In this document: in pieces, positions 46,166 to 63,475 of the stretch
Position numbering within the stretch: position 1 is the first letter of the stretch
How the letters are laid out: every line of letters begins with the position of its first letter
Assembly (NCBI RefSeq): GCF_004138165.1
Contig: NZ_RYFF01000001.1
Coordinates: 186,001 to 250,000, forward strand
From: Candidatus Chloroploca sp. Khr17
Lineage (GTDB): Bacteria; Chloroflexota; Chloroflexia; Chloroflexales; Chloroflexaceae
Direction: 5' to 3'
Length of the DNA: 64,000 nucleotides
The notes under the pieces: model-generated
Databases searched by the model: none
Told to the model about the DNA's origin: nothing
The model's input: only the letters and a program-made list of their open reading frames with translations
Made by a program: the position numbers and the translations under genes

Positions 46166-48937
46166 ATGCCAACTGGCCTCTCAGGGACAGTCACGTTTCT
46201 TTTTACTGATATTGAGGGCAGCACACGCCTCTGGGAACAATACCAGGAGGCTATGGCAGGTGCCCTGGCTCGGCATGATCTTCTTGTGCGCGATGCGATT
46301 ACATCCAATGGCGGAACCGTCTTTAAGACCATTGGCGATGCTTTTTGCGCCACCTTTGTGCGGCCTGAGGACGCCTTGCAAGCGGCGCTAGCTGCACAAC
46401 GTAGCCTGGCCGCCGAGCCGTGGGGCGTGATTGGGAGCTTACGGGTGCGCATGGCGCTGCACACCGGTGAGAGCGTTGTGCGTGATGGCGACTATTTTGG
46501 CCCCACCCTCAACCGTGTTGCCCGCCTGATGGCAACCGGGCATGGGGGGCAAATTTTGCTTTCGAAGGTAACCTCATCGGCACTGTTGCCTGCGCTGCCA
46601 GCCGAGGTGGTGCTGCTCGATCTTGGTGAACGCCAACTCAAGGATCTGAGTCGTCCCGAGCATATTTTTCAGGTTGTCGTCCCCGATCTCCCCAGTTCTT
46701 TTCCGCCCCTCAGGACGGTTGATACCCGTCCGAATAACTTACCCGCGCAAACAACAACCTTGATCGGGCGTGAACGCGAGGTTGCGGCTGTTTGTGCGTT
46801 ATTACGACAACCCGAATTGCGCCTTGTCTCGCTTACCGGCCCCGGAGGTACCGGCAAGACTCGTCTGGCGATCCAGGTTGCCGCCGAATTGCTCGATTTT
46901 TTTGCGGGCGGGGTCTTCTTTGTGCCCCTTGATAGTATACGCAATCCCGATGATGTCTTACCGGCGATTATGCATAGTGCCGGGATTAAAGAGCGCAATA
47001 GTCAGACGAGCCTCGTAGACCTGAAGGAAGGATTGTCGGCGTCCCCAACCTTGATTGTGCTCGATAATCTTGAGCAAGTTATTGCTGCTGTGCCACTGGT
47101 TGGTGAACTGTTGCAAGCGATTCCTTCGCTCAAGTTACTGGTGAGCAGTCGTACGGTCTTGCAGGTCTATGGCGAGCACGAATACCCAGTTCCTCCACTG
47201 AAATTACCCCCTCTCAAACCATTGCCCGCGCTGCCTGAACTGACAACCTACCCTTCTGTAGCCCTCTTTGTTGAGCGAACCCAGGCGGTCAAACCGACCT
47301 TCGTCTTGACTTCTGCCAATACGCGTGCAGTCGCCGAGATCTGCCATCGCCTTGATGGTTTGCCGCTAGCAATTGAGCTTGCCGCAGCACGAAGCAAACT
47401 TTTTACCCCGCAAGTACTTCTTGATCGTTTAAGCAATCAGTTTGAGTTGCTGACGACAGGCGGGCGTGATCGCCCGGTGCGCCAGCAGACGTTGCGGGCG
47501 GCAATTGCATGGGGCTACGATTTATTGCCACCACTTGAGCAACGCCTCTTTCAGCGCCTCGCCGTCTTTGCCGGTGGGTTCACGCTTGAGGCTGCCGAAA
47601 CGATCTGCTTTGACCCCGAATTGCCGGATCTTTTCACCGGAATTGAGTCGCTGTTAAGTAAGAGCCTGCTGCGCCAGGATCTCGATTGCGAAGACACCTT
47701 GCGTTGCGATATGCTCGGAACCATCCGTGCGTATGCGCTCGAGCAACTTGTTGCCGCAGGGGAAGCCCCCATGATGCAAGCTCGCCATCTTTCCTACTAT
47801 GCCGCCTTTGTGCAAGATGCTGAACCTGAACTCCGTAGTGCCGACAATAACCATTGTCTTGAGTTGTTTGACCGGGAGCACGACAATTTGCGGGCGGCGT
47901 TGTCCTATTGTGTCGAGCACCACGAAAAGACCCGCGCCTTGCAACTGGGGGGCGTGCTCTGGCGGTACTGGTGGGCACGAGGCTATTTGCAAGAAGGCCG
48001 ACGCTGGTTAGAGACGCTGATCCAGGTCAGTGCAGATGAGGCTGTGGAACAACGAGTGCAGGTCATTAGTGGGGCAGGGGTGCTGGCGAATGCCCAGGGT
48101 GATCACGAGCGGGCCGCTTATCTACTCGAAGAGGCGCTGCATATCCAGCGCAACCTTGATGATCCAGCATCCCTAGCGTTTGTCTTGACAAATCTTGGCA
48201 TTGCTGTGTTGCAACAGGGTGACTATCTTCGTGCGATTGCCCTTTTTGAAGAGAGTCTTGCCTTGCGGCGTGCGCTTGGTGATCCGGTGAGCATTGCCAG
48301 TTCCCTCAATAATCTCGGCCTTTTGACGCTCTATCAGGGCGAATACGAACGCGCCGAGCGCTTTTTTGAAGAGACGATCATGCTGCGCCGCAGCCTCGGT
48401 GATATCTGGGGAATTGGCAATTCGCTTAATAACCTTGGACTCGCCGCGTATTACCAGGGCAATTATGGAGAAGCGTTGAACTTTTGTAGCGAGAGCTATG
48501 GGATTGCGACGGGTTTGCGTGATATGCAGAGTCAGGGCTTGGCGCTGACCAACCTCGGGCGCACCCTCGTTGCCCTTGGGCGTTATCAGGATGCCGTGAG
48601 CCATCTCATTCAGGCGGTTGACCTCTGGCATGAAATTGGCAATCATGAACTGATTGCCGAGTGCCTTGATGGCATTGCCGACATCTTTGCGCAGATGGGG
48701 TTGAGCGCGTCGGCGGCAGAGCTCTATGGGGCAACGGCAGCGCTACGCTCTGCGTTAAAGGCTGCCCTGCCCCATAGCGACCAGACCCGCCGCGATGCGG
48801 CTACTGCCGCGCTTGCCGCCAATTTGGGTGAGCAGTACGAGGCTTGTGTGCGGCAAGGAGCAGGGTTGTCGCTGGAGGCGGCGATTGCATATGCGCATAC
48901 GGTCATCGCTGAACATATGTCGGAAGATGACGCTTAG
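46166..48937 (+). CDS. Class III adenylate/guanylate cyclase fused to an NTPase and TPR repeats
   Basis: 923 residues. Cyclase domain 1-175: the metal aspartates are D15 (FLFTDIEGST) and D58 (FKTIGDAF), with substrate lysine K54; the transition-state region reads YFGPTLNRVARLM, so activity is plausible. STAND-type ATPase about 195-520: Walker A TGPGGTGKTRL (about 230), Walker B LIVLDNLEQ, the LLVSSRTVL sensor and the GLPLAIELAAARSKLF motif. TPR array about 610-880, with several units of the SLNNLGLLTLYQGEYERA form. Likely a signal integrator in which TPR ligand binding controls the ATPase and cyclic nucleotide output. A larger relative lies at 59765-63475. Confidence 0.92.
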   Translation: MPTGLSGTVTFLFTDIEGSTRLWEQYQEAMAGALARHDLLVRDAITSNGGTVFKTIGDAFCATFVRPEDALQAALAAQRSLAAEPWGVIGSLRVRMALHTGESVVRDGDYFGPTLNRVARLMATGHGGQILLSKVTSSALLPALPAEVVLLDLGERQLKDLSRPEHIFQVVVPDLPSSFPPLRTVDTRPNNLPAQTTTLIGREREVAAVCALLRQPELRLVSLTGPGGTGKTRLAIQVAAELLDFFAGGVFFVPLDSIRNPDDVLPAIMHSAGIKERNSQTSLVDLKEGLSASPTLIVLDNLEQVIAAVPLVGELLQAIPSLKLLVSSRTVLQVYGEHEYPVPPLKLPPLKPLPALPELTTYPSVALFVERTQAVKPTFVLTSANTRAVAEICHRLDGLPLAIELAAARSKLFTPQVLLDRLSNQFELLTTGGRDRPVRQQTLRAAIAWGYDLLPPLEQRLFQRLAVFAGGFTLEAAETICFDPELPDLFTGIESLLSKSLLRQDLDCEDTLRCDMLGTIRAYALEQLVAAGEAPMMQARHLSYYAAFVQDAEPELRSADNNHCLELFDREHDNLRAALSYCVEHHEKTRALQLGGVLWRYWWARGYLQEGRRWLETLIQVSADEAVEQRVQVISGAGVLANAQGDHERAAYLLEEALHIQRNLDDPASLAFVLTNLGIAVLQQGDYLRAIALFEESLALRRALGDPVSIASSLNNLGLLTLYQGEYERAERFFEETIMLRRSLGDIWGIGNSLNNLGLAAYYQGNYGEALNFCSESYGIATGLRDMQSQGLALTNLGRTLVALGRYQDAVSHLIQAVDLWHEIGNHELIAECLDGIADIFAQMGLSASAAELYGATAALRSALKAALPHSDQTRRDAATAALAANLGEQYEACVRQGAGLSLEAAIAYAHTVIAEHMSEDDA

Positions 48938-49019: not shown

Positions 49020-52000
49020 TTAGCGTTGCATCAACGGCAAGTAGACGCGATCCGTCACATTGGTTGAGCGCGGTGCAAGGACGACAAGGCGGCCCACATT
49101 TGACTCGGTTGAGGCGGTGCGCACAATATAAAAGACCGAGCCAGGCGCGGTGCCTTTCAGGAGTGACAATTCGGCCTCGAAGCTGCCGCTTGCATCGGTG
49201 ACAACCTGGGCAGGTACCGGTGTATTGATCGCCTCTTGATTGCGCCCACTAAAGATCGTTACCGTTGTTCCAGGGGCAAACCCTGAGCCCGAGACATAAT
49301 AACGGGCGTTATTGCCTGGTTCGAGATAGGGTGGCTTGATCTCCATACGCGCCTGGATATCGGCAGCGGTTACTTTGCCCCACGACGGCAGGTAGCTATA
49401 GCCATTGCCGGTAATCAGGAAGCCACGATCATCCGCGAAGTTGTCGTCCACCGCATTCAAAAAGAGGCCGATGTCGTAGGTGTATCCGCCATCAACGGTA
49501 TACGACGCCGTGAGACCACCGCTCTCGTCGGGTTTCCACGCCGGACGGAAGTTCACACCTTCGCCACTTTCTGGCGAGACAAACGGCCAGATGGGGTACT
49601 CCATGTCGTAGAAATAGCTCGTGTCTTGCTTCGAGAAGCTCAAGCGCCCGAGGTCGTAGCTTCCACTGAAAGGATTCTCAGGGAAAGTCGGATCTGGCGG
49701 CTCACGCGGATCAAGCCCCTGCATCACCCTCGGATCGCCGATCCGCGTGTAGAGGAAGGCCATCTCGTCGGTACCTGGACGCCACGACGGGTAGTTAGTC
49801 AACAGGTAATTGCCCTCATACATATCGTCGGCGGTGTGCAAGACGAGGTAAACGAGCCTTGGTGGAGCAGCCGTATAGTCAATAAAGCCGATCTGATTGT
49901 AGAGCAGACTGAGTTCGGCAGGATTGACGGTACTCTCGTCTTCGAGCATCGTATAGCGGAACATGAGGTATCTGCCATTGTAGTCGGCATTCTCATAGTA
50001 GACATTGTAAGGACGCTGATCTACGGTGTTGTAAAAACCTGCACCCGGCCCAAGGATCATAATGTCGAAGTCGGTTTGTCCGGGTTGCTTGCTAAGGTTA
50101 AGATAGTGGATCGCCTGACTGATCTCCCAGTCAAGTGGATCACTGTTACTAAGGTCAAAGCGCAATTTGGTATAGAGGATGCCCCTCCGTAGCCCTGGTG
50201 CCGGGGTGGCGACAAAATCCCACGATGGATCGTACGACTGTTCAATCGTACAGGGTAGATCATTGCCTGGCCCATCGGGACAATTGACGGCGCCAAAAGT
50301 AAGTTGCTGCGGTTCGCTGGCATTGCCAGGGCCAGTGCCGTCAGCGTCAATCAGGAAGAGATTGAGATTGAGGCTCGTGGCTTCGCTCGGTGTCGCATGG
50401 CGGTTTGAGACATAGACGACCTGCTGCCCGTCAGGCGACCAGCGCGGATAGCTATTGGCAAAACCATCACTGAGCAGCGGGAAGGTCTCGGCGGTTTCTG
50501 TAACCGAGGTGGTTGATTGAATGCGATAGAGGTCACGTTGTTCACTATTGACAACCCTGGCATAGACAATATCGCTGAACGAGGCGGCTGCCGGTGGCGG
50601 TGGTGGCGGAAGGGTAGGATCGGGTTCGGGGTTCTCAACATTGGGCCACTCGCCGAGGTACTGCGCCCGAGCCAGGGTATACCAGGGGGTGCCCTGGATC
50701 GCAATCTCACTGTAGCTGATCGGGCTCCGCGGATCAAAGCCACCCGCACGTGGGTCAAAGCCCCCGGCTCGTCCCGATGGCAACGGCATATGCACACTCA
50801 GTCCAAAGCTCTGGGGGGACTGGGTGCCGTTATCTTCGACAATGATCACATTGTTTTGGCCTGGGGTAAAGGCATTGATCAGGGCTTCGGCAGGCGTGGT
50901 GACGCCCGTCAGATTGAGGGTGCGCACATTCTGGGCATAGTGGTAGAGATCACGGAAGTCGCGATCCTGATAGAACTGGGTCTGTTCACCAGCACGCAGC
51001 AGATCACCGGCTGCACTCGAACCGACATTCAAGATAGCATTGGCGAAGTTGTTGACCCGCTGGATCAGTTCATCGAAGGGCTGATCAAGATTGACCGCAC
51101 TAACGGTGAATTCCTGGCGGGCTGGGCCACCATCGTTGCCGCGATAGAAATTGGCATAGGCCGCAACAATCTGCGCGGCCCAGACCTTTGGATCAATCGT
51201 CGGATTCTGCAGCACTGGCCTGAGGAAGGTATGGTATGGGAAGCCCGGCCCCGGCACCACCTCCTCGGAGGCAACCATCATGCTGACATAATCTTTGATT
51301 TCGTAGGCAACTTCATATTGCCCCATCAGACAGGCGTCGAAGATGAGCAGATCGAACTGGCTCTTGCCAAGGGCAGCGAGACCCTGTTGCAGCGCCTGTC
51401 GGAGCTCGAGCATATTCCAGAAGTTACTGCTCACATCATCACTCTCGATGGCTTTCCAGCCACCTCCGTGATTCCAAATGACCGCTGCATACTGGTTGGC
51501 AGGATAGTTTTGCCTGACAAAGTTCATAAAACGCACAAACGTCGCGGGATCACCCGTATCAAGATTGCCAGTAAAATCAGATTTGTCGGTGACAGGCAAA
51601 GCTCCGGTACTCCGCACTTCATAGAGCGTGGTCGGGCGATTCGACTCATCACTGAGCACGACAATATTGACGTCGTTGGTTGTACCGCCAGACGCGACCA
51701 TTTGATCGATGTTGAACTTGGCATAGTTCGAGAGATCATTGTCACCAGCGATATAGACTGCTACTGTCCACTGTTTGGTGGCAGGCTGACCGATCTGAGC
51801 GAGTTCGGCTGAAGGATCGAGCACGGGGAACGTGACGGAAGGTGGCCCAAGGGGTGGCAAGACGCTCCCCTGGGGGAGGCCACCAACCACGGTGAAGGCG
51901 GCGCTGCTCTGGGTGAGTTGCGGATGCGTGGCGGCCTGCATCGCCCCGTCGAGCGTCGCCTCGATCGCGGTGAGCGTATGGACGCCATTCGTCATCGGCT

Positions 52001-52493
52001 CGGGAATAAGAAACGACGTGCGGAAGGTGCCGTCAAAATCAGGCAAAATGAGGCGGCGTTCGGTGACATTGACCCCATTCCACAAGAGCTTGACGCGCTG
52101 ATGCGGCGCATAGCCAAAGCCCTGCACCTCGATCATACTGCCTGGTACACCGCTGGTGCTGCTGAGCAACAGACGGCGCACATCTTTCGTCATCGAGCGA
52201 TCAGCGAGGCTGAGCAACGGCACGCCACCCGCACGATCTGGGCTGCGCGCCGGACCTTCCATCGCAAAGACAGGCTTCAGGGTACTACGAGCCGCTGCAC
52301 CACCATCGCCTGACGGCATTGCCGCGCTCGCCTGGAGGGTCGTCGCAGTGGATAGGCGTGCCAGAGGATTATCGGTGGCTGGTTGGGCCTGTAAGGGCAA
52401 GACAGCGAGGATCAACGCAAGCATACCAAGCATCGCAAAGATGCTGCCAAAACGAACACGACCATGTCTGCTACTCGAAGATAGGGTACGCAT
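49020..52493 (-). CDS. Secreted clostripain-like cysteine peptidase (C11) with beta-propeller and Ig-like domains
   Basis: 1157 residues. Signal peptide about 1-37 (LGMLALILAVLPLQAQ). A beta-rich segment (about 110-205) with GSMIEVQGFGYAPHQ precedes the peptidase (about 240-600). The catalytic dyad is H342 in IWNHGGGW and C388 in FDACLMGQ; the DNDLSNYAK motif is also present. A GGFDPRAGGFDPR mini-repeat lies near 580. TolB-like propeller blades (YPRWSPDGQQVVYVSNRH) occupy about 660-1010, and a final Ig-like domain about 1060-1140 (GSGFAPGTTVTIFSGRN). Clostripains cleave after arginine. GGGAGG lies 7 bases from the ATG. Confidence 0.92.
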   Translation of the reverse strand: MRTLSSSSRHGRVRFGSIFAMLGMLALILAVLPLQAQPATDNPLARLSTATTLQASAAMPSGDGGAAARSTLKPVFAMEGPARSPDRAGGVPLLSLADRSMTKDVRRLLLSSTSGVPGSMIEVQGFGYAPHQRVKLLWNGVNVTERRLILPDFDGTFRTSFLIPEPMTNGVHTLTAIEATLDGAMQAATHPQLTQSSAAFTVVGGLPQGSVLPPLGPPSVTFPVLDPSAELAQIGQPATKQWTVAVYIAGDNDLSNYAKFNIDQMVASGGTTNDVNIVVLSDESNRPTTLYEVRSTGALPVTDKSDFTGNLDTGDPATFVRFMNFVRQNYPANQYAAVIWNHGGGWKAIESDDVSSNFWNMLELRQALQQGLAALGKSQFDLLIFDACLMGQYEVAYEIKDYVSMMVASEEVVPGPGFPYHTFLRPVLQNPTIDPKVWAAQIVAAYANFYRGNDGGPARQEFTVSAVNLDQPFDELIQRVNNFANAILNVGSSAAGDLLRAGEQTQFYQDRDFRDLYHYAQNVRTLNLTGVTTPAEALINAFTPGQNNVIIVEDNGTQSPQSFGLSVHMPLPSGRAGGFDPRAGGFDPRSPISYSEIAIQGTPWYTLARAQYLGEWPNVENPEPDPTLPPPPPPAAASFSDIVYARVVNSEQRDLYRIQSTTSVTETAETFPLLSDGFANSYPRWSPDGQQVVYVSNRHATPSEATSLNLNLFLIDADGTGPGNASEPQQLTFGAVNCPDGPGNDLPCTIEQSYDPSWDFVATPAPGLRRGILYTKLRFDLSNSDPLDWEISQAIHYLNLSKQPGQTDFDIMILGPGAGFYNTVDQRPYNVYYENADYNGRYLMFRYTMLEDESTVNPAELSLLYNQIGFIDYTAAPPRLVYLVLHTADDMYEGNYLLTNYPSWRPGTDEMAFLYTRIGDPRVMQGLDPREPPDPTFPENPFSGSYDLGRLSFSKQDTSYFYDMEYPIWPFVSPESGEGVNFRPAWKPDESGGLTASYTVDGGYTYDIGLFLNAVDDNFADDRGFLITGNGYSYLPSWGKVTAADIQARMEIKPPYLEPGNNARYYVSGSGFAPGTTVTIFSGRNQEAINTPVPAQVVTDASGSFEAELSLLKGTAPGSVFYIVRTASTESNVGRLVVLAPRSTNVTDRVYLPLMQR

Positions 52494-52598: not shown

Positions 52599-52635
52599 GA
52601 GCTATGCCCGCCATGGAAAGGCTTGCCCTCCCAAG

Positions 52636-52675
52636 CACTCTTGATACGCGGGGCGTAGCCCGCGTATCAAGAGTG
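52636..52675. repeat. Palindrome, tip GGGC-GTA-GCCC, between divergent genes
   Basis: CACTCTTGATACGCG (52636-52650) pairs with CGCGTATCAAGAGTG (52661-52675), and the inner GGGC/GCCC closes a GTA loop with one extra G. Directly followed by TTTTATAAT, whose TATAAT is the likely -10 box of the next gene, so the palindrome occupies its -35 region. Confidence 0.75.
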
Positions 52676-52678
52676 TTT

Positions 52679-52692: not shown

Positions 52693-55600
52693 ATGAAGAT
52701 TCATCACTCCTTCAGGCTCGTCATATTGCTGCTGCTGAATGGCTTGCTGCTTGCTAGTTTTGCTGGCTTTGTGTGGGCTGATAATGCTGCGAATCGTGGC
52801 GTTGTCTTTACCCCTGACCCTGAGCCTATCCCACTGGCTGATGGACCAACCCTGGGCGTCAACCTTTTTAATGTGCATCTGGAACCAGACCCTGTGGCGG
52901 TGCAGCGTTCCTTTGCCCTCTCGGCGGAACTCGGGGCACGTTTTGTGCGGATGCAGGTACCCTGGGACGATCTTGAGATCCATGGGCGCGGCGATTTTGA
53001 AGATCGGCGCAATGTTGAGGCCGTCGGCGTGGTTTCGTCGTGGGCCAAATATGACCATATTGCCAGGGCAGCTCGTGACGCCGGGGTGGAATTGATCTGG
53101 CGCCTCGAACGACCTCCCGTATGGGCGCGCAGTCAGTTCGAGGCTGATCCGGTCTTTCAGGCCGGGTTGCTGGTCGATGGCAATTCGACCGGCCCTCCCG
53201 ACGATCTTGCGGATTATGCGGCTTTTGTGCGGGCTGTGGTCGAGCGGTATAACGGTGATGGGGTAGATGACGCCCCCGGTAGCCCAGTGGTACGCTATTT
53301 CCAGATCTGGAATGAACCAAATCTTCGCAATGAGTGGAATTGGCACGATCCGCGTCCCGAGGATTTTGTTGAACTCTTGCGCGTCGGGGCTACTGCCGTG
53401 CGCGAGGCCAATCCCGATGCCGTCGTCATCTTCCCCGGTCTTGCCCCGACCGATGGGCTCGATTTTCGTGCGCCAATGACCGAACTCGAGTACCTCGACC
53501 GGGTCTATCGAGCGGGCGGTGCAGCCTATTTTGATGTGATGGCGGCGCAAGGGTATGGTCTCGGTCAGGCGCCAGATGAGCACCGATATGTCTTTTTGCG
53601 CGGGCGGGGCAATTGGAACTGGCAACGCCCGATTGATACGCGCAACGACGTGAGCCGGGTGGTGCTCTTGCGCGAGGTCATGGAGCGACAGGGCGATTAT
53701 GCGACGCCCATTTGGATCACCGAGTTTGGCTGGAATAGCGCCCCCGACACGATTCCGCCCGAGCGCCGGATGACCTGGGGGCCGCCAGTGAGTGAAACCA
53801 TCAAGGGCGAATATCTGATCGGCCAGATGGAACGCGCCCGTGACGAGTGGCCCTGGATTGGCGTGATGAATGTCTGGATGCTGCGCTACGGCGGCTATGC
53901 CGAGCCAGATCCCGCTGATCCAACGCCCTATTTTGCCCTGGTGAGCCGTGACTGGCAGCTTCAGCCGTCGTTTGAGATCCTGCAAGCCTTTGCGATGGCC
54001 CCAGCCATTGCCGGCGTCGGGGCGCATTCGTGGAACCACGCCGCCGTTGAGCCCCTCGCTGATGGATGGCGCTTGCGATTTGCCGGGACACGCCTTGCCC
54101 TCGTGGTTGATCAGGCCAACCCTGTGGCAGTGACAATCAATGGCGACCCGGTTGCGTTGCGTTACGATGAGTCGGACGGGCGATCGCTGCTGGTCAGTGA
54201 CGAATTGCCTGACACCGTGCATGTGTTTGAGTTGCAAGGGCCGCGTCCGCCTGTGAGTTTCATTGTTGAACGGAGGCGTCAGTGGGCTTTCTGGTGGGAT
54301 TATGGGGCATTGGGTTTGCTTGCTCTGATGGCGTTCAGTGGTGCAGCGACGATGGTGGCAGCACCACCTGTGCTTCTCCTGATGAGCCAGCGTGTGAACC
54401 AGATGCGTGGGCGCATCATCGCCCGTGGTGGCTGGCTAGCCTACCTTGTGCGGGCCAACACGCTTGTTGCGAGTGCCATGCTTTTTGCGGTGATCGTCGC
54501 CTACCGAGCTTCGCCCCAGGTGCCGCTCACCCTCATCGGCCTGTTGCTCTTCGCGATCCTGGCGATGATGCGGCCCAGGTTGGCGCTGCTCTTTGTCCCC
54601 TTGACGTTGCCGCTCTACTTTATTCCCAAGTTGATCTTTGATAGCCGCTTGGGGTTGCGCGAGAGTGGCCTTGCCTTGCCACTGCACGAACTCTTGCTGA
54701 TGATCACGCTGCTTGCCATGAGTATGCGGCTGGTGATCGAAGTGATGGCGCACTGGCTCAAACGACCGCTGCACGAGCCGCAGGTGCTTGCCTTGCCTGG
54801 CAACGCGATACGTACCCTGCGCGGTCTTCGCCAGACCTGGTCGTTCTGGCTGCCGATCCTGCTTGTTGGGCTCGCGGCTCTCTGGGGCGTCGTGATTGCC
54901 GAGCAGCGCGGGCCTGCATTGCGCGAATTGCGCTGGATGTTTGTTGGTCCAATGGTCTTTGTCGGGGTCGCGGCACTCTTTGGTCAGGCGTATCAGCGCC
55001 CAGTGGTGCTTGCCTGGCTCACGGGTGGGGCGCTCGCCGGACTGATTGGCTTGCTCCAGTTTGGTGGGCTCAATCTGGTGCCCCTCTTTGGCACCAAGGC
55101 AGGCTTTGGCGATGATAGCTTCTTTGTCGAGGGCGTGAGGCGCGTCGCGAGTCTCTATGGGCATCCGAATAATCTGGGCCTCGCAATGGGACGCTATTGG
55201 CCCGTGGCGGCGGCGTTGACGTTTGTGGCGCTTCGTGGGGGGGGTGTACGCAAAGCCTGGCCCTATGCACTGTTGACCCTACTCACCCTGGGTGGCTTGT
55301 TCGTCTCGTTTTCGCGCGGAGCGTACCTGGGGATGCTGGCAGCGAGTACTGTGCTGGCGTTCGCCCTGGTACCAGCAAAACTGTGGCGCACGCGGCGGGT
55401 GCTGGTGCCCCTCGCGATAGTCGCGGGAATCGGCGTGGTTGGGGTGATCCTGGTGATCATCCTCGATATCGAACGACTCAACCCATTTGGGGCAAGCAGC
55501 GGCGTGCGCGTGCAGACCTGGCTTTCGGCGCTGGCAATGTGGCGTGATCACCCGCTGGGGATCGGCCTCGACCAGTTTGGCCGCCTCTATCCGGCCTACA

Positions 55601-55923
55601 TCAACCCGGCCCTGGCCGCGACCAACGAGATCAATACGGCGCATCCGCACAATCTGTTGCTTGATCTCGCCCTGCGGGTGGGGCCGCTCGGTCTTCTTGG
55701 CTTCGGGTGGCTGCTCGTCAATTTCGCACGCGGGGCCTGGCAGACGCTTGCCACCACGGGTGCGGCGCGGCACGCCGGCGCATACGGCCCCGTGCTAGTG
55801 GCCGGAGTCAGCGCCGCAATGGCGGGCGGCCTTCTCCACGGCATGGTTGATCAGTTCTATTTCTGGCCGGATCTGGCGTTTGCCTTCTGGCTTATGGTGT
55901 GGGTAGAGTATGTTCATCGTTGA
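52693..55923 (+). CDS. Fusion of a glycoside-hydrolase-like domain and an O-antigen ligase-like membrane domain
   Basis: 1076 residues. Signal anchor about 8-28. Residues about 50-430 form a TIM-barrel of clan GH-A type, with the acid/base E208 in QIWNEPN and the nucleophile E344 in WITEFGW, both in their expected strands. A short beta segment (about 440-515) precedes some 14 helices (about 530-1076) with the O-antigen ligase (Wzy_C/WaaL) features: FSRGAYLGMLAAS, then the large periplasmic loop region containing HPLGIGLDQFGRLYP and HPHNLLLDLALRVG. The fusion could trim a lipid-linked glycan and join it to an acceptor. It heads an operon with two glycosyltransferases. Confidence 0.85.
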   Translation: MKIHHSFRLVILLLLNGLLLASFAGFVWADNAANRGVVFTPDPEPIPLADGPTLGVNLFNVHLEPDPVAVQRSFALSAELGARFVRMQVPWDDLEIHGRGDFEDRRNVEAVGVVSSWAKYDHIARAARDAGVELIWRLERPPVWARSQFEADPVFQAGLLVDGNSTGPPDDLADYAAFVRAVVERYNGDGVDDAPGSPVVRYFQIWNEPNLRNEWNWHDPRPEDFVELLRVGATAVREANPDAVVIFPGLAPTDGLDFRAPMTELEYLDRVYRAGGAAYFDVMAAQGYGLGQAPDEHRYVFLRGRGNWNWQRPIDTRNDVSRVVLLREVMERQGDYATPIWITEFGWNSAPDTIPPERRMTWGPPVSETIKGEYLIGQMERARDEWPWIGVMNVWMLRYGGYAEPDPADPTPYFALVSRDWQLQPSFEILQAFAMAPAIAGVGAHSWNHAAVEPLADGWRLRFAGTRLALVVDQANPVAVTINGDPVALRYDESDGRSLLVSDELPDTVHVFELQGPRPPVSFIVERRRQWAFWWDYGALGLLALMAFSGAATMVAAPPVLLLMSQRVNQMRGRIIARGGWLAYLVRANTLVASAMLFAVIVAYRASPQVPLTLIGLLLFAILAMMRPRLALLFVPLTLPLYFIPKLIFDSRLGLRESGLALPLHELLLMITLLAMSMRLVIEVMAHWLKRPLHEPQVLALPGNAIRTLRGLRQTWSFWLPILLVGLAALWGVVIAEQRGPALRELRWMFVGPMVFVGVAALFGQAYQRPVVLAWLTGGALAGLIGLLQFGGLNLVPLFGTKAGFGDDSFFVEGVRRVASLYGHPNNLGLAMGRYWPVAAALTFVALRGGGVRKAWPYALLTLLTLGGLFVSFSRGAYLGMLAASTVLAFALVPAKLWRTRRVLVPLAIVAGIGVVGVILVIILDIERLNPFGASSGVRVQTWLSALAMWRDHPLGIGLDQFGRLYPAYINPALAATNEINTAHPHNLLLDLALRVGPLGLLGFGWLLVNFARGAWQTLATTGAARHAGAYGPVLVAGVSAAMAGGLLHGMVDQFYFWPDLAFAFWLMVWVEYVHR

Positions 55924-55990
55924 CAAAATCGCTCAAGTGTACTACTATGACACAACCAATAGATCCCACCCATTTTGTGAGGAGCACACG

Positions 55991-56407
55991 ATGACCCTGC
56001 ATGCCCACGGCACGTTCACGGTTCAACTCACCCCTCAGCCCCTTGCCGACCCCAATGCCGACAGCCTACTCGGCCGTCTCGCTATCGCCAAGGAGTTTCA
56101 GGGCGACATCACTGGCGTGAGCTATGGCGAGATGCTCAGCGCCCGCAGCGCGGTCGAGGGTTCAGCCGGCTATGTCGCCATCGAACGATTCACTGGCACG
56201 CTCCACGGTCGCCGTGGCAGCTTCGTCCTCCAGCACAGCGGCGCGATGACCCGCGGAGCCCAGCAGCTCACCATCAGCGTCGTACCAGACTCAGGCACCG
56301 ACGAGCTAGAGGGCCTCACCGGAACGATGAATTTGCAGATCGCCGACGGCGTCCACGCCTACGACTTCATCTTTACTCAAGCAACCTCCCATGACACACC
56401 GCCTTGA
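55991..56407 (+). CDS. DUF3224 family protein
   Basis: 138 residues from ATG 55991, with GAGGAG upstream; an upstream extension lacks support. A beta-barrel-like sequence with the family pattern: LGRLAIAKEFQGDITGVSYGEML, then GYVAIERFTGTLHGRRGSFVLQH and VVPDSGTDELEGLTG, and the YDFIF ending. The function of the family is unknown. Its 3' end overlaps the next glycosyltransferase gene by 17 bp, unusual company for this family. Confidence 0.88.
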   Translation: MTLHAHGTFTVQLTPQPLADPNADSLLGRLAIAKEFQGDITGVSYGEMLSARSAVEGSAGYVAIERFTGTLHGRRGSFVLQHSGAMTRGAQQLTISVVPDSGTDELEGLTGTMNLQIADGVHAYDFIFTQATSHDTPP

Positions 56408-57575
56408 TCGCGTTGCTCTGGGGCTTGGTCTGCTCTATCTGCTTGACCGGCTCTGGAAGATCCTGGCTGTCGTCGCTTTTTTTCGGCGACCTCCACCACC
56501 GGTGCCTGCGCAATGGCCGTCACTGACCTTGCTCTGCCCGATGACCCGTTCGCCCAACGATCTGCGGTCGGTATTGATCGCCAGGGCAACCCTCGCCTAT
56601 TCTGGACAGCACGAGTGGCTCTTGATCTGCGACCGTGCCGATGTCGCAACGCAGGCGATCTGTGCAGAGGTGATAGCAGCGCACCCCGCCTGGTCGGCCC
56701 GCATCGTGCTGGTTGCGCCTGACCAGGGCAGCACGATGGCGTCGAAGATTGCCAAGCTACGCACGGCGTTGCCCGAGGCGCATGGCGAGATACTCTGTTT
56801 TGTTGATGACGATATTCTGTTGCGCCCCGATGCATTGCGCATCCTGGTGCCGTATGTGATGCAGCCCGCTACCGGGGCCGCCTTTGGGCTGGCCTGTTAT
56901 ACACGCTGGCAGACGCTTGCCGAAAGCCTGATGAGTGGTTTTGTCAATACCAATGCACTCTTGAGTTATGTGCCAGTAACCTATCTGGTCGAGCCATTCA
57001 CGATTACCGGCCACTGTTTTGCCTTGCGCCGTGAGGTTTTCACCGCAATAGGCGGTCTAGAAAGCATGCAAAAACGGATCGACGATGACCACGAGCTTGC
57101 GCGACGGGTGCGCAGATACGGCCTACGTAACGTGCAGACCCCGCTGGTCTACGATGTCGACAATCGGCTTGCCCGTCTGCGCGACTATCACTTGCAAATG
57201 CGGCGCTGGTTGATAATCCCGCGCCAGACGATGCTGCCGCACCTGGGTCGTCGTGAGCGCAGCGCAATGCTCTTTGGAAGCCTCGGGAACTTGTTGCCAC
57301 CACTGCTGCTGGTGCTCGCCCTGGTGACGCGCCGACGTGTGCCGTGGCTGAGCCTCGGGTCGAGTCTGGGCTATGTTGCGGCCACCCAGGCCCTGATCGA
57401 ACATGCGTATCTGGGCCGGGCGATGCCGCTTCGTCAGGCCCTGTTGCTCCCGATCCTCAACTGGCTCACGCCGCTCTATATCAGCTTGCTCAGCCTCGGC
57501 AACAACACCATTGTCTGGCGTGGGCAACGCCTACGGGTGCAACGCGGTGGGACATATGCAATCATCGAAGAATGA
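56391..57575 (+). CDS. Membrane glycosyltransferase, GT21/ceramide glucosyltransferase-like (first of pair)
   Basis: 394 residues. One N-terminal helix (about 8-28), a GT-A domain, and three or so C-terminal helices (about 300-375). Catalytic set D, D, D, (Q/R)xxRW: D81 region, FVDDD at 138-141, DDDHELARRV (about 230) and QMRRW (about 270). This is the ceramide glucosyltransferase/HpnI layout, so the acceptor is likely a lipid. It shares about the same organisation with the next gene but modest identity. Confidence 0.85.
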   Translation: MTHRLDRVALGLGLLYLLDRLWKILAVVAFFRRPPPPVPAQWPSLTLLCPMTRSPNDLRSVLIARATLAYSGQHEWLLICDRADVATQAICAEVIAAHPAWSARIVLVAPDQGSTMASKIAKLRTALPEAHGEILCFVDDDILLRPDALRILVPYVMQPATGAAFGLACYTRWQTLAESLMSGFVNTNALLSYVPVTYLVEPFTITGHCFALRREVFTAIGGLESMQKRIDDDHELARRVRRYGLRNVQTPLVYDVDNRLARLRDYHLQMRRWLIIPRQTMLPHLGRRERSAMLFGSLGNLLPPLLLVLALVTRRRVPWLSLGSSLGYVAATQALIEHAYLGRAMPLRQALLLPILNWLTPLYISLLSLGNNTIVWRGQRLRVQRGGTYAIIEE

Positions 57576-57602: not shown

Positions 57603-58784
57603 ATGCGCTGGCTCTGGCGATTGCTGATCATCCTGCTCTATGGCGAGCGACTGCTGAAACATCTGGCCGTGGAGCGCTTTTTTCGTCGTGCTCAACCACC
57701 ATCTGCAGCTAATCCGGGGCTCGTCAGCATTATGCAGCCGATCCTCAGCGGTGATCCAGCCTTGGCAGCTTGTCTTGAAGCAAATCTCATCGCCTACTCT
57801 GATTATCAACGTGAATTCATTTGGCTCATTGATGATAATGATGAGTCGGCGCGGCAGATCTGCACTGACCTGATGGCCCAGTATCCCTCGGGGGCAATTA
57901 CGCTGGTGGCCTTGCCTGCCCCGCCGCCTGAACACAACCCCAAACTTGCCAAGCTGATCGCTGGAAGTGCCCGCGCACGTGGCACGGTCATCTGTGTGCT
58001 CGACGACGATACCATGTTGCCTGACCATGCCCTGGAAAACTGCCTGCCTTATCTGGCGCAGCCCGGGGCCGGGCTTGTCTTTGGCCTGCCCTATTATGTC
58101 AGTTACGCCAATCTCTGGTCAGGTCTGGTGGCGACGTTTGTCAATAGCAGCAGCTTGATGACCTACATTCCGTTCAGCCTGCTACACGAGCCAGTGACGA
58201 TCAATGGCATGTTTTATGCCATGCGGCGCACCACGCTTGAGGCTGTCGGTGGCTTCGCTGGTCTGGAACAACTTGTCGCCGACGACTTTGCGATTGCCGA
58301 ACGATTGCGGAAACACGGCTATCGTCTGGTACAAACTCCGGTGCGTCACGCGATCCGCACCACCGTATCAGGGCCACGCCACTATCTGCGCCTGATGCAG
58401 CGCTGGCTCATCTTCCCCCGCGAGTCGCTGATGCGCCACCTTGCCCCGCACGAACTGGTGCTCGTCTACAGCCTGGTAGCGTTGCCGACGTTTCTGCCGT
58501 GGGTGGCGCTCGCTGTGTCAGGTGGAAGACCGGGGCAGAGAAGCCTGCGGCTCTTTCTCACCTATGCGGGCCTGAGCTACCTGATCTTTGCCACGCATAA
58601 TCGGCGCTACCTCAACGGCGCAACACCCTGGCGCTGGAGTTGGATGGTGCCCCTGGTGCAAATCCTGCTGCCTGCGCAATTCATGAGCGCCATGCTCGCG
58701 CCACGGAAGATCAACTGGCGCGGGCATACGATGCAGATCGAACGTGGCGGCAACCTCCGCCTCTTGCATCGGCGCGACCAATGA
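57603..58784 (+). CDS. Membrane glycosyltransferase, GT21/ceramide glucosyltransferase-like (second of pair)
   Basis: 393 residues from ATG 57603, with AAGGAAG upstream. LIDDNDES, VLDDDT (134-136), ADDFAIAERL and LMQRW give the D, D, D, (Q/R)xxRW set. N-terminal helix about 1-15; C-terminal helices about 285-375. GLPYYVSYANLWSGL and NGMFYAMRR match HpnI-type lipid glycosyltransferases. Stop and next start overlap as ATGA. The pair probably adds two sugars or acts on two related lipids. Confidence 0.85.
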   Translation: MRWLWRLLIILLYGERLLKHLAVERFFRRAQPPSAANPGLVSIMQPILSGDPALAACLEANLIAYSDYQREFIWLIDDNDESARQICTDLMAQYPSGAITLVALPAPPPEHNPKLAKLIAGSARARGTVICVLDDDTMLPDHALENCLPYLAQPGAGLVFGLPYYVSYANLWSGLVATFVNSSSLMTYIPFSLLHEPVTINGMFYAMRRTTLEAVGGFAGLEQLVADDFAIAERLRKHGYRLVQTPVRHAIRTTVSGPRHYLRLMQRWLIFPRESLMRHLAPHELVLVYSLVALPTFLPWVALAVSGGRPGQRSLRLFLTYAGLSYLIFATHNRRYLNGATPWRWSWMVPLVQILLPAQFMSAMLAPRKINWRGHTMQIERGGNLRLLHRRDQ

Positions 58785-59635
58785 AACTTGCCGAGAGGTA
58801 TAAGGACGTGTTGGCGACGTATCCACCTACGCAACGCATGGTGGCGGGCGAACGGTGGACGGTCATCGAAGCTGGTACCGGCCCAACGGTCGTGCTCTTA
58901 CCGGGCGGCTTTGGCCTGGCAACAACTTCATTTCAATACATTGCCGCACTTGCATCTGACTATCATGTGCTCGCGTTGAGCTACCCGCCCCGGCTCAACC
59001 AGGTTGCCCAACTTGCCTCCGGGGTGGTTGCGCTCCTCGACGCTTATGGTGTTGCCACGGCGAGCATCGTCGGCGGCTCCGCCAGTGGCGGCGTTGCCCA
59101 GGTACTCGTGCGCCGCTACCCACAGCGTATCGCGACGCTCATTCTTGCGCAGACGGGGGTGCCACAGCCAAGGCGGGCGTGGCTCGATCAGTTCATTGCC
59201 AGGGCATCTGAACAATTGCCAGCCGCGTTGATCCTTGGCTGCTTACGGCTGGCCGTCTATGCCTTTTTACCGGGCCAGACAGAAGCGATCATCTTCTGGC
59301 GTCAGCACTTTGCCAACGTCATTGGCGAGCAAACACGCGCCAGTCTGGCTGCACGTTTCCACACCCTGGCTGACTACGACCACAACTATCATTTTACCCC
59401 CGCAGATCTTCAGGCATGGCCTGGCACCGTTGCGATCATCGAAGCACCCCAGGATCGCATGCTGCCTGCGCATGAACAAGCCGCGCTGTGCAGCCTCTAC
59501 CCGCAGGCCACCGTCTACCGCATGGCTGGTACTGCCCACCGCGACAGCGTTACCAACCCGATGCCGCAGATCAGCGTCTTACGGGCGATCCTTGAAGGCG
59601 CAAGCCTGCCTACACATTGCCTGGAGCAGCCCTAG
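58781..59635 (+). CDS. Alpha/beta hydrolase
   Basis: 284 residues from ATG 58781, overlapping the preceding stop by 4 bp; a longer frame upstream lies within the glycosyltransferase gene. VVLLPGGFG forms the oxyanion region, the nucleophile is the serine in VGGSASGGVAQ (SxSxG rather than GxSxG), the acid is in APQDRMLP, and the histidine is in GTAHRDSV. A mobile cap lies about 130-190. It could be an esterase or deacylase working on the product of the preceding glycosyltransferases. Confidence 0.85.
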   Translation: MKLAERYKDVLATYPPTQRMVAGERWTVIEAGTGPTVVLLPGGFGLATTSFQYIAALASDYHVLALSYPPRLNQVAQLASGVVALLDAYGVATASIVGGSASGGVAQVLVRRYPQRIATLILAQTGVPQPRRAWLDQFIARASEQLPAALILGCLRLAVYAFLPGQTEAIIFWRQHFANVIGEQTRASLAARFHTLADYDHNYHFTPADLQAWPGTVAIIEAPQDRMLPAHEQAALCSLYPQATVYRMAGTAHRDSVTNPMPQISVLRAILEGASLPTHCLEQP

Positions 59636-59764: not shown

Positions 59765-62700
59765 CTAGACCAGGCGCGCTTCGGCAACGGCCTCGTCGGT
59801 TGTGAGCGTCTGGCCGTAGGCATAAGCAGCAGCCTGTTGCTCTTCGCTAAGCGCCATGCCAGCCGGTGCCAGAGCCTCATCGAGTTGGGCCTGTTCGGGC
59901 GGCGAAAGAGGCGAGCCGGTCGCCTCACGCAGGCTCGCCGCAGCAGCAGCGAGGTAGAGCGCACGTTCAGGTTGCCCGGTGAGTCCAGCAAGCACACCGA
60001 CATCTTCAAGCAGATAGGGCAACGCCCAGCGGTCGCCAAGATCCGCATTGATGGTCAGAGCTTCGCGATAGAGCAGCCTGGCGGTTGCGTAGTCGCCTTC
60101 AGCGGTGGCTACCTTGCCAAGGTTGTTCAGCGAAATTGCGATCGCGTGGCGGTCACCGGTTGCCCGCTCAAGGGCCAACGACTCTTCAATATAGCCCCGC
60201 GCCACCTTATAGTCACCGATCTCGATGGCAAGCATGCCTAGGTTGCCCAGCGAATTGGCGATCCAGAGCGGGTTGCCGGCCTTGCGACGCACGGCGAGGC
60301 TAGCTTCAAAAGAGTGGCGGGCCTGATCCACGTCACCCTGGTGGAAGGCCACAATGCCAAGATTGCTCAACGCTTTGCCCTGCATAATCAGATCAGCACG
60401 TTCACGCTGGATCGCCAGACTTGCCTCATAGTGCGCTTGGGCAAGGGCATAATCACCTGTATGCATGGCCGTTGTCCCGGCATAGTTCAGCGTCTCGGCC
60501 AGACCAGCCTGATCGTTGAGCAGCGTAAAGGCCATCATCGCTTCGTCAAGCCAGGGCTGAGCCTCGGCGAAGCGGCCCTGTTTGCGCAACAGTTCGCCAA
60601 TTAGCGCACGAGCCAGCGCTGCGTCTCGCGGCTGATCCTGGGCCAGCGCCAGGTTCAACGCCAGTTCATAGCGCAGATACGCCTCGTCCCACCGCCCAAC
60701 CAGATCGAGTACCTTACCAAGACGAAGCAGTGGCTCAATCTGGGCTTCGGGGGGAACAAGCGCCAGCAACCGCGTAAGATAATCAATGGTCGCTGCATTC
60801 GCATAGATTGACTGCGCAGCAACCCCCGCTCGCCATAAATATTCTCGCCGTTTGTCAACATTTTCGCTGCGATCATAGTGAAAAGCGAGCAGATCAACCA
60901 GTTGCTCCTCCCCGGCATTGCGCTGCTCAAGATAGTGACCAATCTGCTCGTGAAGCATCGCCCGTGTTGCAAAAGACAAGCTCTCGTAGGTCACTTCCTG
61001 GGTCACAATATGCTTGAAGAGATAAGTCAATTCAGGATCAGGGCTATCGAGCGGAGTTAATTCGAGGGTACTCAGATTTTCCAGTTCACGGCGCACCCGC
61101 TCTTGCTGACCCAAAAAAGAACCCATTCCCCAGAGAATCGTCGCAGGGAAGAGACGACCAATGACACTCGCTACTTTCAACAGGTTCCGCTGGCTTTCCG
61201 TGAGCCGATCCACCCGACTGAGGATCAGGCTGTGCAGGCTTGGAGGGAGTTCAAGGCTGCTCAAGACACCTGGATCACGAGGATCGATGCCCTGGTCACG
61301 CATAAAGTTGAGCAATTCTTCCACATAAAAAGGGTTGCCCTGTGTCCGCGCATTCACTTGTTCAATCAGATGTTCTGGAATTGCTTCACGTGTGCCAAAA
61401 AATTGCTGGAGTTTCAGTTGCACCAGCATAGCGACTTCGTCAGGCAAGAGGTTATCGAGAGGCACTGCGCGGAAAGAGGGCACCTGCGTGATGACTCTAT
61501 TGATGCGTTGCTCGCTTTGTGGCGGACGATAAGCCATCAGGATGAGAACGGGCATCGTCGCGAGGGTACGGCCCAGCACTTCCAGCAGATCATGCGAGAG
61601 CGCATCCATCCAGTGGCAATCTTCAAGCACAATCATCAGAGGAAAAAGACTGGCACGCGCACGCAGGCATGTCACCAGCAAGGCTTCAAGTGATTCTTTG
61701 CGCAGTTTTGCGTCGAAATCAATTGTTAATTCGTTATCAGGAATAGATATGTTGAGAATCGCGCCAAGCAATGGCAAGCGCGATACAAGATTCGCGTCAA
61801 GTTGCTCGAGTTCGGTTGCAAGACTTTTGATCTGTTCGGCCACCGTAGCCCGTGGATCAAGGCCAAAGAAGGCGCGCCAGACGTTCTGCCAGACGAGATA
61901 GGGCGTATTGGTGCCATAGGATTGGCAGGCACCACCATAGACCACCAGATTCTGGCGCGAAGCCGCCCGCACGACCTCGGCTACCAGGCGCGATTTGCCC
62001 AGGCCCGCCTCGGCAACAATGCCAACCACCTGACCATCGCCCCGTTGGGCCAGTTCAAGACGGCCCAGCACAAATGCTAACTCGGTCTCGCGCCCAACCA
62101 TCGGTAGCACATAACGTGGTTCGTGCAGGCGGATCGTATCGCGATCAGTGCTGATCAGGCGATAGGTCGCGACTGGCTCAGCCTTGCCCTTGACCATGAT
62201 GGGGGCGAGTGGTTCCCAGGTAAAGCGGTCACCAGTGGCCCGCCGCAGCGTATGGCTAACCAGAACCTGGCCCACCGTTGCATGTTGCATCAAGCGAGCC
62301 GCCATATTTACTTCGTCACCAAGTACACCATAGGTACGCCGAGTGATCCCTCCATATGCGCCCGTACGGGCACGACCCTGGCTCAAACCGATCTGAAACT
62401 GGTCGAGATAGCCAACCTCCCATTCACGCAGTTCAAGTGCGGCCATCACGGCGCGCACAGGATCATCTTCGTGGGCCACCGGGGCGCCAAAGGCTGCGTA
62501 GAAAAAACTACCTTTATCACCAATGGTCAATTGCAACACATAGGCATCGTAGGTGCGCAGCATCCGTTGCGCCTGCAGCATAAAGTTGTTCAGTTTGGTC
62601 TGGGCATCAGGATCGTGGTCATAGTCGATCCCGCCAAAACGCACAAAGAGAGCCACCACTGGGCGCAGCTCGGTGAGAAACTCTCCCATCCCGACCTGCA

Positions 62701-63475
62701 AGCGTTCGAAGATTGGTGGCAACATCCACTGACGATAGCCTGTTGCGTCAAGGGCCGTCTCGGGCAAGGTTGGCCATGGTGCAGGTGCCGCAACCGTACG
62801 CAACCCATGCAACACGGCAAAACGTGCGCTAGTGGCAGGATCAGTGTGCCACCCTCCAACGCTTGCCAGTTCGCCCAGCGCAAGCGCGGTTGCTTCGTCA
62901 AGCACTACCTGGCCCTGCTGGGCCAGATGCTCGGCTTCCGCCATGCGCTGGAGCGTATCGCCAGCCAGGACATCGAGGATCTGAATAGATGGGTCCCCAA
63001 CGAGAAAACGGCGCACGACACCACTGGCAACCCCAACTTTGATCGCCAGACGAAACCTGCCCGCGCCTGCAACCTCAAGCTCCTCAAAGGTCGCCATTGC
63101 CTGTTGCAAGGCAAGCGCACACGTTGCCGCTCGATACGCCGCATGGGCTGAATCTTCATCTGAGGCCCCATCTTCAGATGCGGACGGAGCGACGGCGTCG
63201 AACCAGCAGGTAATGGCATCCCCGGCAAAACCAAGTACCGAGCCGCCATACCGGTCAACTTCGGCAACTAGGGCATCATAGACCCGGTTGAGTTGACGCG
63301 GTAGTTCTTCGGCTCCACGTTGCGGCCCAAGCGCCCGCACGAGCGATTCGGTCAGGGGGGTGAAGCCAGAGATATCGGCGAACAGGGCCGTACCGCTGGT
63401 CTGTTCACGAAGCGTGTGACCATGAGCCAGTGCCTGACGCCGATCCATCGGGATATAGGCGAGGGGCGATTCCAT
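59765..63475 (-). CDS. Double cyclase-domain protein with AAA/STAND ATPase and TPR repeats
   Basis: 1236 residues; AGGAGT lies 9 bases upstream of ATG 63475. Cyclase domain 1, about 25-215, has FADISGFTPLT and VLGFAGDAITCWFD, with both metal aspartates. Domain 2, about 265-440, starts VALFVRFGGIDYD, so the first metal aspartate is not in its usual place, while the GDKGSFFYAAFGAP and RRTYGVLGDEVNMAARLM segments remain; it is probably a regulatory half. ATPase about 460-720: Walker A VAEAGLGKSRL, Walker B LMIVLEDCHWMD. TPR array about 870-1190 (SNLGIVAFHQGDVDQARHS and similar units). Close in plan to the 46166-48937 product; likely senses a ligand through the TPRs. Confidence 0.9.
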   Translation of the reverse strand: MESPLAYIPMDRRQALAHGHTLREQTSGTALFADISGFTPLTESLVRALGPQRGAEELPRQLNRVYDALVAEVDRYGGSVLGFAGDAITCWFDAVAPSASEDGASDEDSAHAAYRAATCALALQQAMATFEELEVAGAGRFRLAIKVGVASGVVRRFLVGDPSIQILDVLAGDTLQRMAEAEHLAQQGQVVLDEATALALGELASVGGWHTDPATSARFAVLHGLRTVAAPAPWPTLPETALDATGYRQWMLPPIFERLQVGMGEFLTELRPVVALFVRFGGIDYDHDPDAQTKLNNFMLQAQRMLRTYDAYVLQLTIGDKGSFFYAAFGAPVAHEDDPVRAVMAALELREWEVGYLDQFQIGLSQGRARTGAYGGITRRTYGVLGDEVNMAARLMQHATVGQVLVSHTLRRATGDRFTWEPLAPIMVKGKAEPVATYRLISTDRDTIRLHEPRYVLPMVGRETELAFVLGRLELAQRGDGQVVGIVAEAGLGKSRLVAEVVRAASRQNLVVYGGACQSYGTNTPYLVWQNVWRAFFGLDPRATVAEQIKSLATELEQLDANLVSRLPLLGAILNISIPDNELTIDFDAKLRKESLEALLVTCLRARASLFPLMIVLEDCHWMDALSHDLLEVLGRTLATMPVLILMAYRPPQSEQRINRVITQVPSFRAVPLDNLLPDEVAMLVQLKLQQFFGTREAIPEHLIEQVNARTQGNPFYVEELLNFMRDQGIDPRDPGVLSSLELPPSLHSLILSRVDRLTESQRNLLKVASVIGRLFPATILWGMGSFLGQQERVRRELENLSTLELTPLDSPDPELTYLFKHIVTQEVTYESLSFATRAMLHEQIGHYLEQRNAGEEQLVDLLAFHYDRSENVDKRREYLWRAGVAAQSIYANAATIDYLTRLLALVPPEAQIEPLLRLGKVLDLVGRWDEAYLRYELALNLALAQDQPRDAALARALIGELLRKQGRFAEAQPWLDEAMMAFTLLNDQAGLAETLNYAGTTAMHTGDYALAQAHYEASLAIQRERADLIMQGKALSNLGIVAFHQGDVDQARHSFEASLAVRRKAGNPLWIANSLGNLGMLAIEIGDYKVARGYIEESLALERATGDRHAIAISLNNLGKVATAEGDYATARLLYREALTINADLGDRWALPYLLEDVGVLAGLTGQPERALYLAAAAASLREATGSPLSPPEQAQLDEALAPAGMALSEEQQAAAYAYGQTLTTDEAVAEARLV

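Follow-up and report, generated by a model that had tools for sequence, protein, structure and literature searches.

A single gene within a 64,000-nucleotide stretch of the Candidatus Chloroploca sp. Khr17 genome (contig NZ_RYFF01000001.1, positions 186,001 to 250,000), henceforth referred to as the window, encodes a protein of 1076 amino acids in which a glycosidase barrel is covalently joined to a membrane transferase. With somewhat better than even confidence, the product is read as an enzyme of surface-glycan assembly in which a Wzy-type transferase (GT-C, WaaL fold) carries a fused PslG-like retaining beta-endoglycosidase, tethered on the outer side of the cell membrane. The gene occupies positions 52693..55923 of the forward strand, where open reading frame (ORF) and Pfam analyses place, in order, an anchor, a clan GH-A barrel, a beta-sandwich and a WaaL/Wzy-type membrane enzyme. 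Features lie on the forward strand unless stated otherwise.

The frame opens with ATG and contains zero internal stops. Frames of the same 1076-residue length were found in Ca. C. mongolica (locus L037, 93% identity) and Ca. C. asiatica (L038, 92%). An assembly or gene-calling error joining two genes, which an earlier note on this DNA had named as a possible refutation of its claim, was ruled out by these two other Chloroploca assemblies and by the 60 distinct fused proteins described below. The N-terminal hydrophobic helix (residues 5-28, 52705..52776) was recognized by hydropathy, charge and a model helix at residues 5-33, and is predicted to be a signal anchor with its N-terminus inside. 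It is followed by a PslG-like GH-A (beta/alpha)8 barrel (residues ~52-436, 52846..54000), delimited by a structure model, a PslG profile match and fold searches, and by a beta-sandwich (residues ~440-530, 54010..54282) whose strands appear in both the full-length and barrel models. A transmembrane helix identified by hydropathy and in the model (residues ~532-560, 54286..54372) tethers these parts to the WaaL/Wzy-type membrane enzyme (residues 582-1076, 54436..55920), which was assigned by structural and profile matches to WaaL 7tpg and contains a Pfam Wzy_C domain (residues 861-1004, 55273..55704).

Both catalytic glutamates of the barrel were confirmed. E208 is located within the motif IWNEPN (53314..53316) and E344 within WITEFGW (53722..53724). 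When a profile of 37 barrels was compared with the PDB, Pseudomonas aeruginosa PslG was matched first (E 5e-19), followed by the Bacteroides GH39 enzyme 5jvk (1.7e-16) and beta-xylosidases (1e-11). In the profile alignment two PslG chain glutamates stand opposite E208 and E344, and the chain count fits E165 and E276 with a single offset. In PslG, Glu165 is the acid-base and Glu276 the nucleophile, and the enzyme is described as a hydrolase, a retaining endo-beta-glucosidase classed in GH39 (PMC11912335). A model of residues 31-540 (predicted local distance difference test (pLDDT) 69, predicted template modelling score (pTM) 0.76) contains eight barrel strands and then the beta-sandwich, with E208 just past strand 4 and E344 at the end of strand 7. 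Foldseek also ranked PslG at the top (E 2e-15, TM-score 0.47-0.57, root-mean-square deviation (rmsd) ~9), and VIA-align superimposed PslG with Z 22.1-22.5 over at most 345 aligned residues at rmsd 5-7; sequence identity in the structural alignments was 16-18%. The match to Pfam GH39 (PF01229) fell below the 26-bit cut-off for the whole protein (22.2) and for the domain (23.7), and at E 0.01 the Pfam match among 37 barrel relatives is to Cellulase (GH5) in 25 and to GH39 in 14. The barrel is described here as a predicted endo-beta-glycosidase with a probable retaining mechanism.

In the membrane half, Wzy_C (PF04932) scored 66.2 bits against a cut-off of 31.7 and was matched in all 28 aligned relatives (E 0.01). 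PslJ is a Wzy polymerase with this same domain. Searching the PDB with a membrane-half profile returned one clear match, the O-antigen ligase WaaL (7tpg, E 4.8e-13). Counted along this alignment, R939 (55507..55509) stands opposite WaaL chain residue R265, H986 (55648..55650) opposite H313, and R875 opposite R191. Residues 625-1076 of the low-confidence full-length model were superimposed on 7tpg with Z 18.5 and rmsd 5.1, 369 of 403 residues being aligned. R939, H984, H986 and D960 are kept in 84/84 filtered membrane halves, a set restricted to Wzy halves with E <=1e-60 that come near the profile end; in an earlier set that included truncated proteins, R939 was present in 52/54 and H986 in 49/54. 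R875 is variable among relatives. The arginine and histidine equivalent to R939 and H986 are assumed to be functionally important in WaaL. One report mentions a "proposed catalytic histidine" of WaaL, with no residue number given (PMC12800693).

Further evidence bears on which sugar-transfer reaction this half would perform. The GN1 motif (R939-X16-GIG) was present in 28/28 relatives and GN2 (H986N-X9-G-X2-G) in 22/28; both motifs have been tied to beta-linking, type B Wzy proteins (PMC12502699), which share Wzy_C, GN1 and GN2 with the window protein and differ in that the latter has a fused glycosidase. The match to the IctB family of putative transporters (TIGR00947) was weak, with 66.2 bits over residues 732-1069, far under the cut-off of 366.4. 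WaaL (PDB 7tpg/7tpj) resembles the window protein in fold over the 369 residues of that low-confidence superposition and in the R265 and H313 equivalents, and differs in that the window protein has an extra N-terminal glycosidase part. LpxC gave zero matches in the window's own genome (completeness 100), with 4/14 control genomes positive; LptD likewise gave zero matches, a weaker test since just 2/14 controls were positive. Four LytR-CpsA-Psr matches and three Wzz matches over cut-off were found in the same genome, along with eight Wzy_C matches, seven of them over cut-off. Because LpxC and LptD were not matched, yet Wzz and LytR-CpsA-Psr proteins are present, the membrane half is unlikely to be a lipid-A ligase, and a polymerase of wall or exo-polysaccharide is more likely. 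Of the claims in the earlier note, the clan GH-A barrel with E208 and E344, the Wzy_C/WaaL-like membrane domain and the genuine single polypeptide all held, the structural modelling it proposed returned a GH-A barrel and a WaaL-type fold, and the strict label of O-antigen ligase found no support.

The protein's charges are consistent with a barrel outside the membrane. The N-terminus carries +2, and the loop behind the tether helix contains four basic and zero acidic residues; this pattern fits a topology in which the barrel would lie on the same side as the transferase active site. In the mechanism proposed here, the transferase half would join undecaprenyl-pyrophosphate-linked repeat units into a polymer, probably through a beta bond, and the barrel, facing the same way, would bind the emerging chain. 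A barrel with both glutamates, as in the window protein, would also cut that chain and thereby fix how long it grows or detach it from the lipid carrier. That the two halves share one polymer, that the transferase polymerizes instead of ligating, that the bond is beta and that chain length is controlled are all components that we infer.

PslG provides the closest known parallel. Its hydrolytic activity plays a part in making Psl, for which its association with the inner membrane is critical, and PslE, a Wzz/Wzc homologue, is one of its interaction partners (PMC6813494). It shares with the window protein a GH-A barrel in which the two catalytic glutamates are equivalently placed (PDB 5bx9, 4zn2, 9g17) and, by analogy, probably the same kind of role as a membrane-associated glycosidase in exopolysaccharide assembly (PMC6813494). 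The Psl repeat is printed with glucose at its reducing end, so the bond cut by PslG may be that linking one repeat to the next, which Wzy would make. PslG is a separate protein, whereas the window barrel is covalently joined to a membrane transferase, and the fusion would fix a PslG-like enzyme at the polymerase exit. The need of a polysaccharide gene cluster for a hydrolase that degrades its product has been called elusive (PMC9075953). The suggestion that the fusion represents a new way of building surface glycans stands in part: each part belongs to a known kind, PslG already takes part in glycan assembly as such a glycosidase within one pathway (PMC6813494, PMC9075953), and what is new within the literature searched is the covalent fusion with a polymerase/ligase, its spread over many families of the phylum and the branch with dead barrels. 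None of the papers among the matches listed describes this fusion, in a search that left most subscription journals outside.

The same fusion was found across Chloroflexota, as the earlier note had proposed to look for. Profile P0001 matched 145 of 400 Chloroflexota genomes at 1e-30, including 23 genomes of the window's own family and 17 others of its order (rows counted by hand); no unmatched genome of that family or order appeared among the rows listed, which were sorted by kinship, a further 235 unmatched rows lying beyond the listing. One frame with both parts was present in 17/23 own-family genomes, with one frame cut at its end. Elsewhere in the order the two parts are encoded by adjacent genes, and several of these overlap or lie <=20 bases apart if each is taken to begin at its earliest start codon. 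A fused-protein profile matched 182/400 genomes at 1e-60, and at least 66 of these show one frame with both parts. The fetched Chloroflexota loci yielded 60 distinct fused proteins of 840-1289 amino acids, covering 22 family codes (counted by hand) plus three named loci and including three proteins cut by an end (L026, L047 and L128). Trees of the two parts each contain seven changes of fused state, of which well supported branches force at least five for the barrel and at least six for the membrane half; 3/53 rows were left out of the membrane-half tree for short coverage, and 5/129 rows (L002-L005, L065) out of the wide barrel tree. A barrel-only gene lies close to the fusion in the same locus in 9/86 rows of the first barrel tree and 19/124 rows of the wide one. 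Outside the phylum, where a plasmid collection was searched, three barrel records and zero fused proteins were found; one of the records, from Paracoccus, has a related barrel gene and, ~2.8 kb away, a gene of the O-antigen ligase family, the two being separated by a flippase.

Co-occurrence of the two parts was followed in hand-picked, non-random genomes, and the counts describe a pattern, not a rate. This Wzy subfamily was present in 28/28 barrel-bearing genomes checked (25/25 and 3/3), the first set including 21 genomes with no Wzy beside the first barrel found. The last three came from 30 further genomes that had been negative or weak before; the other 27 had no barrel, and 17 of them had Wzy. 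Because the barrel was never seen without this Wzy, and barrel-free genomes commonly have Wzy, the barrel resembles an accessory to the polymerase. Twenty Wzy loci fetched from the 21 genomes with an apparently solo barrel comprised eight fused to a divergent barrel, three with a barrel gene beside them, eight without an adjoining barrel and one fragment. Solo barrels are weakened as proof of uncoupling, since 21/21 such genomes carry Wzy elsewhere, and obligate coupling is ruled out by the 17/27 barrel-free genomes that possess Wzy.

Several observations weigh against a PslG-like glycosidase working with its fused polymerase. As to structure, the full-length model is poor (pLDDT 62.6) and its domain arrangement was not used. 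VIA-align ties PslG with GH5_18 and other clan GH-A enzymes (Z up to 23.0, with lower rmsd), and PslG appears as the nearest solved relative by sequence profile, not by fold alone. Wzy_C cannot separate a polymerase from a ligase, and GN1 is a loose motif with six matches within the window protein. As to context, the eight Wzy loci lacking an adjoining barrel came from barrel-bearing genomes, and active-type barrels with both glutamates also occur apart from any Wzy. The plasmid barrel hits in Calothrix and Methanomethylovorans have no annotated Wzy or ligase nearby, and a conserved glycan cluster around the gene was not seen in Chloroflexaceae, where several loci end close to the gene. PMC9075953 reports that Psl synthesis does not require pslG. 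Finally, one or both glutamates are lost in 14/60 fused proteins and also in one barrel encoded next to a Wzy gene.

Both glutamates were present in 86/86 distinct proteins of a first set, whose 87 rows include the window protein twice. In a wider set of 129 distinct barrels they were present in 46/60 fused and 68/69 non-fused proteins. The substitutions vary (E208 to Q, A, D or N; E344 to N, H, S, G, A or Q), and N207 is replaced by D in 13/15 glutamate-lacking barrels vs 1/114 others. In the wide barrel tree the 15 glutamate-lacking barrels form one group, accounted for by one change, although its branches are long and two of its joins drew a program warning. The earlier note had named the disappearance of these glutamates from homologues as a refutation of its claim; this was found in part, in a clade to which the window protein does not belong. 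The fused glutamate-lacking proteins keep R939 and H986 in 14/14 Wzy halves. A separate barrel with both glutamates is encoded in 13/14 genomes with a dead fused barrel, and the fourteenth (G240) has a barrel match. Cutting in cis is therefore not obligatory, and glycan holding may be the constant function with cutting optional.

These data give some weight to an alternative in which the barrel serves the polymerase chiefly by clamping the glycan, providing processivity or chain guiding, with cutting secondary and transferable to a separate paralogue. In one clade of 14 fused proteins and one barrel beside a Wzy gene the glutamates were lost in various ways, although the barrel and R939/H986 stayed, and a separate two-glutamate barrel is found in nearly all of the genomes concerned. 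A pure clamp would not need the glutamates that are kept in 46/60 fused and 68/69 non-fused barrels, the window's included, and the clamp is considered unlikely, although it is the likeliest of the alternatives.

A second alternative is a glycan ligase with transglycosylation, in which the membrane half or the retaining barrel would transfer the completed chain to an acceptor, for example the cell wall or a lipid, making one protein both builder and anchor of the polymer. Among solved structures WaaL comes closest to the membrane half, and the retaining chemistry of clan GH-A enzymes makes transglycosylation possible in principle. The absence of LpxC and LptD matches from the genome, the four LytR-CpsA-Psr matches that offer another route of wall attachment, and the description of PslG, the closest relative, as a hydrolase (PMC11912335) all argue against it, and the proposal is regarded as improbable. 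O-linked protein glycosylation, with the membrane half as an oligosaccharyltransferase and the barrel trimming the glycan, appears more doubtful still: PglS does combine a Wzy_C domain with a WaaL-like predicted fold (PMC12800693), but the NCBIfam TfpM model reached 13.9 bits where its cut-off is 600, and the matches listed included no further oligosaccharyltransferase model, in a search that did not extend to protein acceptors. That a foraging glycosidase and an unrelated transferase were joined by chance or form a decaying fusion, or that the assembly is at fault, is hardly credible, for although barrels of the same family also occur alone, there are 60 distinct fused proteins, intact glutamates throughout the first set (86/86) and conserved polymerase residues.

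A bolder form of the preferred reading, a polymerase fused to a glycosidase that acts on its product, is put forward tentatively. The fused proteins would constitute a polymerase class, distributed across one phylum, with its own product-binding barrel. In the window's branch the barrel would cut the polymerase-made bond or transglycosylate it onto an acceptor, and in the other branch it would be a dead clamp while a paralogue cuts. The existence of the dead-barrel branch is the reason that chain holding may be the broader role, with cutting as an optional addition.

The neighbourhood of the gene was also analysed. Downstream lie a DUF3224 gene (Pfam; 55991..56407, probable ATG 55991, stop 56407), two GT21-like glycosyltransferase genes (Pfam and NCBIfam; 56391..57575 and 57603..58784), for which the best model is HpnI, below cut-off, and an alpha/beta hydrolase ORF (Pfam; 58640..59635 from the first start codon, the true start probably being later). 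The statement that the fusion leads an operon held for the presence of the glycosyltransferase pair and the hydrolase downstream; between the fusion and the pair, however, lie the DUF3224 gene, regarded as a neighbour outside the system, and a promoter-like site, and the pair was seen only in Chloroploca. That site, TTGACA-17-TACTAT at 55920-55948, overlaps the fusion stop codon and suggests a separate transcript for DUF3224 and the glycosyltransferases; it is a consensus match only, of a kind found six times in the region vs a shuffle mean of 2.5, and so weak. Among 15 related loci, 4/89 neighbour ORFs matched GT21, these being the two pairs of L037 and L038, placed by gene size and order since the pooled Pfam tally gives no locus names, and the pair was thus apparently confined to Chloroploca loci. 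Several of the 15 loci end close to the gene, and the neighbour scans took 106/108 and 89/101 picked ORFs. A conserved operon with the glycosyltransferases is therefore unsupported.

Different neighbours were found in some deeper lineages. An NDP-sugar (nucleoside diphosphate sugar) epimerase and a second Wzy follow the pair at five Pfam-checked loci (L049, L081, L087, L101 and L112), and LPG_synthase_TM proteins or glycosyltransferases were found at L049, L071, L087, L101 and L109. The Wzy - NDP-sugar epimerase - second Wzy cluster, which is not present around the window gene, is a candidate core glycan locus of the phylum. Gene sizes at L102-L109 resemble this cluster. In the split arrangement of L101 and L105, a gene of 242-253 amino acids with a weak, sub-cut-off CE2_N match lies between the barrel and Wzy genes; it is perhaps the fusion's sandwich as a gene of its own. 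MnmE was matched in 7/106 neighbour ORFs around fused or adjacent pairs, and in the window's own genome (L124) another Wzy_C gene is located directly behind mnmE.

Additional features were noted upstream and at the flanks. An inverted repeat with 20-bp arms (52633-52678) lies directly upstream of the start codon and is followed by TATAAT, with an RNA fold z of -6.9. By eye the repeat is largely kept in L037 and less perfect in L038, with wobble changes and mismatches, and an operator or leader hairpin is suggested. The divergent gene at 49020-52493 (reverse strand) encodes a large clostripain-type C11 peptidase with a PD40 match. Two very large flanking proteins (46166-48937 and 59765-63475) appear, by eye, to contain cyclase, AAA-type ATPase and tetratricopeptide repeat (TPR) parts.

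If the bolder reading is true, one polypeptide would build, measure, and release or anchor a glycan chain, and would represent a polymerase with a built-in editing domain, analogous to proofreading nucleases. The catalytically dead branch gives this natural fusion a built-in control, which makes the service of the barrel to the polymerase, with and without cutting, directly testable. Because the pairing of barrel and polymerase occurs in many families of the phylum, it suggests that Chloroflexota trim or hold their surface polymer at the site where it is made. Pseudomonas cells that have lost PslG activity are found in polymer-linked chains (PMC9075953), and for filamentous Chloroflexota the fused enzyme may likewise have a bearing on how cells stay joined.

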